From NCBI GenBank assembly GCA_961205875.1, contig OY540821.1, positions 5,208,001-5,272,000 of the forward strand: a stretch of DNA of 64,000 nt. Reading direction: 5' to 3'. This DNA is from Sialis fuliginosa (taxonomy: Eukaryota > Arthropoda > Insecta > Megaloptera > Sialidae). Numbering within the stretch: the first letter of the stretch is position 1; every line of letters starts with the position of its first letter. Of this stretch, positions 1-21,916 are shown piece after piece. The translations under genes and the position numbers were made by a program. The notes under the pieces are model-generated. The model made no database searches, was not told where the DNA came from, and saw nothing but the letters and a program-made list of their open reading frames with translations.

Positions 1-32
1 GAAAAACGGAGAAACTGTGGTTTCTAGTCACT

Positions 33-200
33 TAAACTAAAATATACACCTTAACCACAATAAAACAATGTCACTCGACACGTGTTTCGACTTCACAAGA
101 AGTCTGGAACTGTTAGGCTCCTGATGAGGACTTCTTGTGAAGTCGAAACACGTGTCGAGTGACATTGTTTTATTGTGGTTAAGGTGTATATTTTAGTTTA
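33..200 (+). repeat. Perfect long palindrome (72-bp arms, 24-bp loop)
   Basis: Bases 33-104 are the exact reverse complement of 129-200, with no mismatch over 72 bp, around a 24-base loop at 105-128. The arms carry the block CACAATAAAACAATGT and the ACACGTGT palindrome that recur in the units at 1158-2010. The perfect match implies a very recent origin or gene conversion between the arms. The right arm begins exactly at the first base of the stem II strand of the hammerhead-like fold annotated separately. The transcript would be a strong hairpin. It could be the inverted terminal-repeat arrangement of a retroelement or a foldback MITE; no coding sequence is inside. Confidence 0.9.
117..160 (+). 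ncRNA. Hammerhead-ribozyme-like motif (minimal stem III)
   Basis: All core elements are present in order. The conserved box CTGATGA is at 121-127. Stem II is GACTTC (129-134) with GAAGTC (139-144) around a TTGT loop. GAAA is at 145-148. A minimal stem III lies in ACACGTGT (148-155), and the cleavage triplet GTC ends at 156. Stem I is CTC (118-120) with GAG (157-159), plus a G.U pair (117/160). One extra G (128) lies between the box and stem II, which may weaken activity. A stem III of only 2-4 bp is typical of animal and Penelope-like-element hammerheads, which are thought to act as dimers. Activity is not shown; the motif assignment is by structure only. Confidence 0.6.
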
Positions 201-949
201 GGTAACATTATGACACACCAAAATAATGATAAAAAAATACCACATATTACAGGTACTTTTGGGGGGAAATGTCATTTTTATAAAAATAAAAAATATATAT
301 ATATATATATTTTGACTTTGATGAGCAATAACTCTGAACTGGAAACACGGCTAGCAATAACGCTAATACTGAAAAATAAGTTAGTTAATTACCTACGAAA
401 CTGACTCATTGTGGTTGCTCTAGTAATGTTACTTTGGAAGTTACGAGATATTCTTTGTTTGTAAGTACTACTCTGAAGGAAGTTTTTAAACATCCTGTAG
501 CTCAGAGAGTGTTGAAGATAGACCCCTCTTTTCCGTACTATTTTTTACTCACAATGAACCAAGGAATCAGCTCTTAAAATATCAGTATCCCAAACCGGAC
601 CATTCTGTATATAATTGAAATAAATCACCCGGTCGTTATTTTTGAATAAACCTTTCTTAATTAAGATATGCTTAAATAACATAATATATATGCAGTTTCC
701 ATATTCTGGATTTAAATCCAGGATTACAATTTTTCATTCGGGGGATTTTTTATAATTACAATTGTACCTCGTGTGCCAGCATATCTTGAATTTTTAATTA
801 TTTGCTGCGTAGGGAAAAAACACTCTCCTCGAGGAGGGGACAATAAAAATGGAATAATAAAAAAAAACACAACCGAATTTAATATTCTATTCACTGATAT
901 CAATTTTTTCCGTCGGGTATTTCTTTATTCCAGGACTAAAATTAAATGG
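201..949. other. AT-rich non-coding stretch
   Basis: A short (AT)n run lies at about 291-311. A few short open frames are present, none with recognisable protein features. No transposon end, RNA gene or conserved motif was recognised, apart from an ACATCCTGTAG block near 490 that resembles the ends of common insect repeats. Confidence 0.5.
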
Positions 950-2020
950 TTTTTAGGCTAATAATAAATTCATTAAAAACGAAAATAATGTGGCTTTACA
1001 CAATATCAAAATAAAACATACACGTAGTTTTTTTAGGGAGTGAAAAATATGTAATCAATATTTTCGGTTAACTTTAATTTCTGAAAAGAAGCACTTTTCG
1101 TGAGTAAATGTGTATGTCAGTTCTTGTAAAGGATTTCATATTAAATACGGAAAACATAAAGTTAAGACTACTGGAAAAACTGAAAATCGTGGTTTCTTAG
1201 TCACTTAACCTAACCTAACCTAACCTAACCTTAACCACAATAAAACAATGTTGCTAACAGTTACTCAGGAGGACTCCTTGTGAAGTCGAAACACGTGTCG
1301 AATGACATTTTTTACTGCGGATAAGGTGTATATATAAAGTTAAGACTACTGAAAAACCTGAAAATCGTGGTTTCTTAGTCACTTAAACTAACCTAACCTA
1401 ACCTAACCTTAACCTCAATAAAACAATGTTGCTAACAGTTACAGAGTCAGGAGGACTTCTTGTGAAGTCGAAACACGTGTAGAATGGCATTTTTTACTGT
1501 GGATAAGGTGTATATATAAAGTTAAGACTACTGGAAAAACTGAAAATCGTGGTTTCTTAGTCACTTAACCTAACCTAACCTAACCTAACCTAACCTTAAC
1601 CACAATAAAACAGTTTTTAGGCTAATAATAAATTCATTAAAAACGAAAATAATGTGGCTTTACACAATATCAAAAAAAACATACACGTAGTTTTTTTTAG
1701 GGAGTGAAAAATATGTATAATAAATATTTTCGGTTAACTTTAATTTCTGAAAAGAAGCACTTTTCGTGAGTAAAAGTGTATGTCAGTTCTTGTAAGGGAT
1801 TTCATATTAAATACGGAAAACATAAAGTTAAGACTACTGGAAAAACTGAAAATCGTGGTTTCTTAGTCACTTAAACTAACCTAACCTTAACCTCAATAAA
1901 ACAATGTTGCTAACAATTACAGACTCAGGAGGACTTTTTGTGAAGTCGAAACACGTGTCGAACGACATTTTTTACTACTGTGGATAAGGTGTATATTTTT
2001 AGTTTAAGTGATAAAGTTAA
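950..2020 (+). repeat. 664-bp segmental repeat containing telomere-repeat/half-palindrome units
   Basis: The block beginning TTTTAGGCTAATAATAAATT at 951 recurs at 1615, an offset of 664 bp, and similarity runs on through about 250 bp of unique-looking sequence. Inside are four units of about 180 bp starting near 1158, 1336, 1518 and 1826. Each has AAAGTTAAGACTACTGGAAA, then a (CCTAA)n tract, then CACAATAAAACAATGT or its derivative, then a degenerate copy of the right palindrome arm with GTGAAGTCGAAACACGTGT. In these units the CTGATGA box is replaced by a shorter CAGGAG, so the ribozyme core is broken. No ORF is present. The unit is best read as a decayed multimer of the 33-200 element. Confidence 0.85.
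1206..1237 (-). repeat. Short (TTAGG)n array, reads CCTAA on + strand
   Basis: Five consecutive AACCT units are followed by a TTAACC variant. The same tract recurs at about 1384-1412, 1565-1600 (the longest) and 1872-1890, always in the same place and orientation within the roughly 180-bp unit. TTAGG is the ancestral insect telomere repeat. Arrays this short are interstitial rather than a telomere. A fixed position in every unit suggests that the tract is part of the repeated element. Confidence 0.8.
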
Positions 2021-2539
2021 GAGTGAAACCATGCGAAAAATGTTATAAAAAAATAGTTTTTTGTGTTATTTTTAACAGAATTATCGATAATTTTAGCATA
2101 TTTTTAATCAATAAAATAAATAAATGCACAAAAATTTTATTTATACAAATTAAAAATTGCAGACTTTCAACGATATTTTTTTTTCAATAACGGCATCCGT
2201 TTGAAAATGACAGTTGATTAGTTTCAAGACCTTCCCGTGGGACACCCTGTATCTCACGAAGAGTAAAATATATGAGAATATGGAACATATACCTATTTTT
2301 ACATGACTTGCTATTACTTCATTTACGTTTTTACTTCAATGTTCCGAAGGAAATGGAAGTATTGTAATACCGTCAAAAAATCGTGTCCGAGATAATAACA
2401 GATTCTGATTGTACTACCTTCAAAACGTAAATAAAAGTTAATTTCCGCATGACGACTGTGCGTGTGTCTGTGTGTCTGTATGTAGAATTTTCTGTCGTTC
2501 ACGATAACTACTATAAAAATGCACCGATCAATTAATAAA

Positions 2540-20510: not shown

Positions 20511-20705
20511 TATTTTAGGGTCATAAAAGATACCTGCCCAGTTAGTTTTTTTTTATTCAACTGGACCCCAATTTGATATTAATATATTTTATATAAAAAA
20601 TACTAAACATTCCGAAAAAATATCAAATTGAAATAAACTTATGTTTATAATTTATAACAAACAACAAACAAAAACTATGGTTATGACTTATGAAATACAA
20701 ATCCC

Positions 20706-20789
20706 CTAACCATAAAAACTGACTCTGATGATGATAGCATTGCTATTGAAACATGTGTAAGTCTGAACTCTTAAAATTTTTATGGTTAG
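20706..20789 (+). ncRNA. Second hammerhead-ribozyme-like motif between inverted repeats
   Basis: CTGATGA is at 20725-20731. Stem II is GATAGC (20733-20738) with GCTATT (20742-20747) around ATT. GAAA is at 20748-20751. A minimal stem III C/G pair surrounds ATGT, and the cleavage triplet GTA ends at 20759. Stem I is GACT (20721-20724) with AGTC (20760-20763). As at 121, one extra base (T20732) sits between the box and stem II. The fold is bracketed by a perfect 13-bp inverted repeat, CTAACCATAAAAA (20706-20718) and TTTTTATGGTTAG (20777-20789). The plan is the same as at 33-200 with unrelated sequence. Confidence 0.55.
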
Positions 20790-21605
20790 GTTATGTTACA
20801 AAATTATGTTGAAAAATCAAATTTTCCATGTTCAATGTCGATTTTCATGATTTTCCTTCAATTAAATATTTTATATATTCGAAAACATCACTCGAATAAT
20901 TAATAGCAAAAAACATCCCCCCTCCCAAAAAAAATAATTCCTTCATGCAACATTTATAATTCAAAAGAAAATTAATAAAAATTTAATAAGTAGGTAGTGA
21001 AGGGTACATCTAAATACATTTCAGTATTTGATGTAATCATAAATAGGTCCTTTGAAACCATTAAATGCAGCACTGTAGTGCATTATAAATTCAGATCAAT
21101 ATTGTTAATTTGAATTATTTCTTAGAGCACTTCGGTGTAGGGCACTGATGAACTAATTTAATTAATTATAAAATATTTAAATTATACTGTGAGAGAATTA
21201 ATTGTGAAATCCATTTACTTATATCTATTAGGGCGCCATTTCATCATCAATTTCTGTCAAATATCCTATAGCAAATTTATTAATTGTGATACAGTGTATT
21301 TGTTAATATATTGACAACCCTTTTGCTTATAATTAATCTATAACGATTTTGTGTCACAAATTTTTACAAATGGAGTTATATAAACTAAAAGGAAACGGAT
21401 GTTGTACATATATAACTGTACCAGTAAATGAAATGTCAGCAAAGTGTATATCGTATGTGTCTGTCAATGTTGACTAATATGAAAGAAACTATTTTCCTGA
21501 AATGGCAAATTTATTTTTATATCAATTAGTTACTATACGAACATGGAACTTGTAGATTTCTATTACTTTTCGCGGGTGAAAAAAAATTAAATATAATTAT
21601 GTATG

Positions 21606-21916
21606 ATAAAAACAAACTTGTTTGTTTAAACGTCAAAATTTATTTTAGAAAAGGTAATCGCAAGCTTTCGATTCACAGAATCATCGTCACATGAATATTA
21701 TTGAGATAACGACATCGTTCTCAAATTTAAATCTTTATTAATAGGTAGGTATATTTCTGAATTTTTATTTTAAAATATCAATATTTTACATTATATTAAT
21801 TGTATTTAATTGTTATTTATTATATTTTAGCCTGACGATGATTCTGTGAATCGAAAGCTTGCGATTACCTTTTCTAAACTAAATTTTGACGTTTAAACAA
21901 ACAAGTTTGTTTTTAT
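21606..21916. repeat. 84-bp inverted repeat with hammerhead-like remnant in arm
   Basis: Arms 21606-21689 and 21833-21916 match in inverted orientation with one mismatch, around a 143-base spacer. The right arm carries CTGACGA (21832-21838), stem II GATTC/GAATC around TGT, and GAAA. The base pairing A15.1 (GCTTGCG instead of a U before the cleavage base) is missing and no stem I is evident, so this is at best an inactive relative. The arms share TTTAAACGTCAAAATTTA with 14018-14145. The outer sequence TTTAACGTCACTACTATTAT recurs at 63222. Confidence 0.7.

Follow-up and report, generated by a model that had tools for sequence, protein, structure and literature searches.

A palindrome with a hammerhead motif that is very probably a head-to-head mini-insertion of a Penelope-like retrotransposon

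The window analysed here, a 64-kb stretch of DNA (C13:5208001-5272000 of a 392-Mb genome in 20 contigs), is low in GC, has no open reading frame of 150 amino acids, and contains runs of CCTAA, the insect telomere repeat, features that together suggest an insect. At its left edge lies a short insertion in which a target-site duplication, a tail, an inverted pLTR piece, and a direct pLTR piece follow one another in that order, with a hammerhead (HHR) motif in the direct piece (Table 1). The left copy of the duplication, GGTAACATTAT, falls just outside the window; the insertion with its flanks makes up locus L018, of which position 2001 is window position 1. Across a loop at 105-128, the arms at 33-104 and 129-200 pair at all 72 positions, which bears out the perfect 72-bp palindrome described in a first-pass annotation of this DNA, and a wider inverted-repeat call extends the arms to 27-104/129-206 at 97%. 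The inverted and direct pLTR pieces share the bases AGTC at 101-104, a microhomology. We conclude with high confidence that the feature is a mini-insertion of an EN-containing Penelope-like retrotransposon (PLE), made of two cDNAs joined head-to-head via this 4-nt microhomology.

Table 1. Features of the window. Ruler positions refer to a pLTR ruler: 65, start-site-like A; 85, HHR core; 120, last base before the predicted cut; 165, end of the pLTR; 202, end of the tail.
Feature	Position	Strand	Basis
PLE tail, ~36 nt (~5 nt left of the window), outer end of the inverted arm	1..31	-	L018 minus arm = ruler 93-201
Inverted pLTR piece, tail-bearing, stops at stem II	32..104	-	72/72 complementarity, ruler positions
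Direct pLTR piece, start-site-like A101 to pLTR end	101..200	+	ruler 65-164 at 100%
Type I hammerhead (HHR) motif	111..164	+	sequence, RF00163 alignment, paired changes between families
Target-site duplication, right copy GGTAACATTAT (13 nt counting TA 199-200)	201..211	+	L018
Older decayed two-armed minis, family-1-like PLE	1168..2011	minus arms 1168-1251, 1346-1429, 1528-1612, 1834-1907; plus arms 1264-1344, 1451-1537, 1924-2011	blastn of pLTR ruler
Family-2 PLE mini-insertion	20652..20790	minus arm (tail-bearing) 20652-20721, plus arm 20721-20790	blastn with L053 pLTR, 95.7% over 70 nt on each strand

The hammerhead can be read directly from the letters of 111-164, where the boxes and stems that the first-pass annotation had listed do occur in order. 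The core CTGATGA (121-127) is followed by an extra G128, stem II (129-134/139-144, loop TTGT), and GAAA (145-148); stem III consists only of A148-U155 and C149-G154 around an ACGT loop, stem I of 118-120/157-159 plus 111-115/160-164 across a GG bulge, and the predicted cut falls after C156. The CUGANGA, GAAA, and NUH boxes thus lie in order at 121-156, and they do likewise in both PLE families described below. The covariance-model search that had been proposed as a check formally gave the outcome named there as refuting, no hit above threshold: RF00163 (Rfam Hammerhead_1) aligns to 118-159, yet at 17.7 bits, below its gathering score of 34, with an E-value of 0.034 when 81 nt are searched and of 0.94 when 2.2 kb are searched. 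Over the 64-kb window, the family-2 copy included, no Rfam family reaches gathering. Rfam microRNA families that outranked the hammerhead were rejected; they follow the long hairpin and score far under their own cut-offs. An HHR descriptor, written after the motif was seen (no fewer than 6 bp in stem II and no more than one extra base), matches the window twice, at 121 and 20725, and matches 4832 first-order Markov windows three times in total; relaxed to a stem II of at least 4 bp, it matches 65 times in 4832 such windows.

The same sequence is widespread in the genome, where it accompanies PLE coding sequence. At other places in it, the 80-bp segment that begins with CTGATGA is matched at least 57 times, a lower bound on copy number with 40 of 209 candidates scored, and 43 of the 57 listed, among which the window's own copy is not counted, are identical over the 80 bp; copies that keep CTGANGA and GAAA together, on which the first-pass annotation had made its reading depend, are therefore present. 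Many of these matches form inverted pairs at very different spacing. Retrieved copies have their parts in one order, beginning and ending with the duplication: a tail of ~36 nt comes first, then the inverted arm, then the direct arm. At two loci, L010 and L011, the GIY-YIG end of a Penelope-like protein is encoded between the same inverted arms, the HHR core in L011 beginning 55 nt past the end of the GIY-YIG match. The Pfam GIY-YIG model matches L011, L010, and L053 with E-values of 0.0023-0.0032 and 18 bits against a cut-off of 22.6, with the GIY and YIG residues present; at a threshold of E 0.01 it reports nothing for the frame of L052, a locus that nevertheless has 90% identity to the L011 domain. 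RVT_1 is recognised in the long frames of both families (E 2.7e-13 in family 2, L053; E 6.2e-15 in family 1, L052). With 150 of 1044 candidates scored, the GIY-YIG search protein has at least 152 matches in the genome. The pLTRs stand in inverted or direct order with one tail, the arrangement by which PLEs are recognised, with a direct tandem in L053, and 31 of 38 loci are flanked by exact duplications of at least 8 nt, with a length of 11-14 nt in 29 cases, as against 6 of 148 control placements.

Searches in other directions were negative in the collections covered: the family-2 protein has no match in the PDB at 0.001, a 19-mer from the region none in viral contigs, window 1-240 none in phages, and window 1-2100 none in plasmids. 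The one exact match of that 19-mer, in a bacterial MAG, lies within a GC-rich repeated stretch and was taken as chance. As a separate observation, five equal-scoring PLE protein matches at C10:3223621-3253527, spaced by ~7.37 kb, look like a tandem array of a larger unit; locus L062 is the 3 kb around the first of them.

A second PLE family has left a mini-insertion in the same window (Table 1). Its protein is 53% identical to that of family 1 over 794 aa, and at L053 (C9:1291500-1300500) family-2 PLEs stand in direct tandem and are accompanied by an inverted copy. This locus has open frames of 815 and 711 aa and contains one and the same hammerhead sequence three times, two of these hammerheads being on the same strand at a distance of 2.6 kb. 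The start codon (ATG) of the PLE protein there follows the beginning of the HHR core by ~120 nt, which places the HHR in the leader. The family-2 hammerhead reads CTGATGA-T-GATAGC-ATT-GCTATT-GAAA-CACGTG-TA, with AGACT/AGTCT as stem I. The motif of the window copy, CTGATGA-T-GATAGC ATT GCTATT-GAAACATGTGTA, has its core at 20725-20731, an extra T, stem II at 20733-20738/20742-20747, and GAAA at 20748-20751, and its cut is predicted after A20759. The best blastn match between the two pLTRs is GAAACACGTGT (E 0.033); TATAAATA (E 1.4) and CTGATGATGA (E 4.8) are further matches with their order preserved, although neither alone exceeds chance. Farther along the window, a head-to-head inverted pair was seen by eye at ~21613-21690 and 21832-21915; the segment 21832-21856 reads CTGACGA-T-GATTC TGT GAATC-GAAA, without a clear stem III or cleavage triplet, and is possibly a third, diverged relative.

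Comparison of the two families gives 6 of 12 pairs changed on both sides, all in stems I and II, across 23 rows. The rows were picked by a pattern that fixes the core and the stem III C-G and asks nothing of stems I and II, and they represent 23 of 25 distinct sequences, leaving out the L013 minus copy, which has a junction as its 5' flank, and, because of a shortened stem II, the L064 copy. Paired cells make up 95.7% in the true alignment and at most 38.8% when partners are slid; the observed count of two-sided pairs is reached in 5 of 500 shuffles and that of further pair types in 140 of 500. Stem III is invariant across these rows, its C-G being fixed by the pattern, and is therefore uninformative. 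In essence, the paired changes amount to one split between two families.

Judged on these sequences, the HHR is most probably a genuine one whose stem III is weak. Its placement in the pLTRs of PLEs speaks for it, as does the second family, which keeps the core but has two-sided changes in stems I and II. The descriptor matches 25 of 30 loci chosen by protein, a set that stands for 26 places; of the five misses, L029 and L049 still have the boxes but differ at a base of stem II. In another 14 loci, most of them more distantly related, 8 give a full descriptor match with all boxes. The overall figure of 105 motif occurrences counts overlapping loci more than once. Counting against the HHR, slower change of the core was not seen within family 1, with 22/555 changed at the 15 core positions and 172/3552 at the rest (p 0.45).

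Folding predictions for single copies are unfavourable. In the family-1 monomer, the HHR fold is predicted at -9.0 kcal/mol against a minimum of -17.5 kcal/mol, with an ensemble share of 1.3e-6, and in family 2 the corresponding values are -5.6 and -12.3 kcal/mol and 2e-5; such a weak monomer fold is expected for a stem III of this kind. Both families also carry an extra base between A9 and stem II, G in family 1 and T in family 2, so the G that had been noted as a deviation characterises the family and is no flaw of the window copy, though, as the first-pass annotation had suggested, a G there may slow cleavage. The CChMVd ribozyme has an extra A at the position after A9, and the part of the literature on it considered here reports that C or G there is strongly detrimental and that U raises the trans-cleaving rate 3-4-fold (PMC3705267). 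By analogy, family 1 may be slow and family 2 faster in cleavage, depending on the extra base.

The same observations could mean that the family-1 motif is an inactive relic, a hammerhead homologue that does not cut owing to the extra G and to misfolding. The CChMVd result for G (PMC3705267), the unfavourable folding of the monomer, and the absence of a cut-site footprint among the junction ends described below would all fit such a loss. However, the core boxes are identical in two families only 53% alike in protein, and the Anolis PLE hammerhead is likewise silent alone and, in the sections of the report consulted, cut only once its protein was added (PMC11167929). We regard a relic as rather unlikely, if the most serious of the alternatives, and favour a genuine hammerhead.

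A working sequence of events can be proposed. The HHR would lie at about +21 to +56 of the transcript, and if the element is intact and in tandem, one transcript would contain two HHRs, the first near its beginning and the second in the following pLTR. In family 1, cleavage in an intact element would take off ~56 nt of leader. It would probably proceed as a dimer via the self-complementary ACACGUGU of stem III, or with the help of the element's protein. A mini-insertion would begin with both cDNAs being copied from the 5' part of the element RNA, comprising start site, hammerhead, pLTR, and tail. Priming would occur from the two sides of a staggered cut, one cDNA starting at the far edge of the tail and the other at the near edge, and each would run to the RNA 5' end or stop early before the two are joined. 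Head-to-head joining would then produce a palindrome flanked by an 11-13 bp duplication.

The ends at which such cDNAs stopped can be read from the junctions. From 38 DNA-found loci (L002-L021, L066-L083), we kept 28 junctions whose arms lie at most 25 nt apart. Inner ends fall at ruler 62-67, around the start-site A at 65, in 28 of 56 cases, a share inflated by the DNA query, which required ruler 85-164 in one arm so that the longer arm must start early; such starts are found in 22 of 28 longer arms and in 6 of 28 shorter arms. Inner ends within 2 nt of the HHR cut (ruler 119-123) number 2 of 56. Both are on shorter arms, 20 of which start at 68-180, giving 0.88 expected per 5-nt stretch, and 2 of 28 shorter arms at the cut is about what chance would give. 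By a length threshold, the tail is on exactly one arm in 24 of 28 junctions and on both arms in none; on inspection of the other four, L002 and L014 have the tail on one side and L072 and L073 have none, the no-tail entry for L014 being an artefact of a row that used an inner fragment. TATA precedes the A by 31 nt in family 1 (23 of 29 arms) and by 33 nt in family 2 (9 of 10 copies), and from this geometry we infer that the inner ends at ruler 62-67 mark a TATA/initiator start site.

That many inner ends lie at the start site and few near the cut suggests uncleaved RNA as the insertion template. The genomic lack of a sign for insertion of cleaved RNA agrees with the in vitro result for the Anolis PLE, in which, in the experiments described in the portion of that paper used here, HHR mutants do not alter insertion (PMC11167929). 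We tentatively propose, at somewhat less than even confidence, that the mini-insertions are an in vivo record of the template, in which two cDNAs, one from each tail edge, often extend to the 5' terminus of uncleaved RNA before meeting head-to-head. The HHR would then not be used to make the template and would instead limit the pool of intact RNA available for insertion, its speed being set by the additional base that follows A9 (G or U). A young family with dozens of near-identical short insertions makes it possible to ask from genome sequence alone whether the template was cleaved or uncleaved.

Older insertions lie nearby. The stretch 935-2022 is a duplicated block with a shift of ~664 bp, holding decayed two-armed PLE minis and CCTAA runs of variable length, and its last unit is flanked by ATAAAGTTAAGA at 1822-1833 and 2011-2022. 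CTGATGA is absent from 1156-2022. Where the arms meet, units B, C, and D have CTCAGGA or GTCAGGA. The inner end of an inverted arm directly precedes this heptamer, matching at 14 of 16 bases in units D and C and at 11 of 16 in B; the direct arm aligns to the ruler from position 85 onward in B and D and from 90 onward in C. The heptamer is either a core with two changes or junction filler. The 182-bp tandem array at 1156-1596 within this block might point to a metazoan retrozyme, in which tandem repeats of 170-400 nt carry a type I HHR and spread by circular RNA, and the weak stem III with its palindromic loop recalls amphibian retrozymes as they appear in the relevant passages of PMC7229834. 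But the array units are two-armed PLE minis without CTGATGA and not tandem units each with an HHR, the arms end at the start site and not at the HHR cut, and PLE coding sequence is located between the arms. The array was dropped as a retrozyme candidate, and we consider a retrozyme origin improbable.

The insertion anatomy also accounts for the place where palindrome and ribozyme meet. In the window copy, the arm boundary does coincide with the first base of stem II, as first described; palindrome and ribozyme meet there because the two pieces were joined at the shared AGTC. The first-pass annotation had taken palindrome and ribozyme as one unit and had suggested that folding could alternate between them. 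A structural switch of this kind, in which the two co-evolved and the RNA toggles between hammerhead and hairpin, has the coincidence at stem II in its favour and is nevertheless very improbable: inner ends scatter over ruler 38 to 179 among the 28 junctions, with 93 seen once only, in the window copy, the shared AGTC explains the break point, and the 72-bp hairpin, predicted at -136.1 kcal/mol, would dominate and leaves no credible toggle. In the window copy, this modelled hairpin would trap the ribozyme and prevent the HHR from folding, and the copy is most likely inert. What survives of the hammerhead-plus-palindrome reading is the hammerhead, through its pLTR placement and the paired changes between two families; the joint origin does not. 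In one window, palindrome and ribozyme may look jointly designed, yet the way in which such insertions are copied can account for this. Chance resemblance to a hammerhead in the terminal inverted repeats of a foldback or MITE DNA transposon would agree with the perfect inverted arms and the many near-identical copies, but is scarcely credible: the target-site duplications vary in sequence and length, the tail sits on one arm, L010 and L011 encode the PLE GIY-YIG between these very arms, family 2 has copies in direct tandem, and the descriptor is matched by chance 3 times in 4832 windows, yet the motif is present in two PLE families.

A head-to-head PLE mini-insertion places this locus among known systems. 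HHRs in the pLTRs of PLEs have been described before (Cervera & de la Pena 2014; Lunse et al. 2017, as told in PMC7761336 and PMC11167929). Many animals have elements of this kind, and what is new here is the junction count, the promoter geometry, and the second family in the same window (20652-20790). A literature search for hammerhead together with Penelope in Lepidoptera found none. The HHRs of PLE pLTRs, so far as the sections of PMC7761336 drawn on here describe them, are like ours in being type I, in lying in the pLTR, in having a weak stem III, and in possibly acting as dimers when in tandem; they usually lack the non-conserved part of helix III, whereas two pairs and an ACGU loop remain here, and the present motifs differ from them in the extra G or T after A9. 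An amphibian type I HHR with a one-pair stem III and a palindromic tetraloop, as given in part of PMC7229834, has the same stem III design and the same expectation of dimer action, but sits in tandem retrozyme repeats and not in the pLTRs of PLEs.

The closest parallels are with PLEs whose insertions have been described in detail. The general anatomy of inverted pLTRs, a 30-40 bp tail on one of them, short duplications, and junction palindromes is set out in portions of PMC3846280 and PMC11167929. PAc (Poseidon from Anolis carolinensis) has RT and GIY-YIG in one protein, as here, and, in the extracts of PMC11167929 that we compared, resembles our elements in a tail that is the stretch between two RT start sites, in an HHR near the start of the coding region, and in cutting and extension of both target strands, which is an in vitro result for PAc and would be the case here. 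The PAc ORF begins at stem II, whereas in family 2 the ATG follows the core as described above and the HHR is in the leader. The Penelope families of Adineta vaga share with ours the inverted pLTRs, a tail (31 bp) on one of them, duplications (8-10 bp), palindromes at the inverted junction, and a TATA and an initiator-like sequence in the pLTR; the word hammerhead is not mentioned in the excerpted text of that paper (PMC3846280). For its palindromes, the same text favours self-priming, whereas the junctions described here fit two cDNAs meeting at the 5' end of the RNA.
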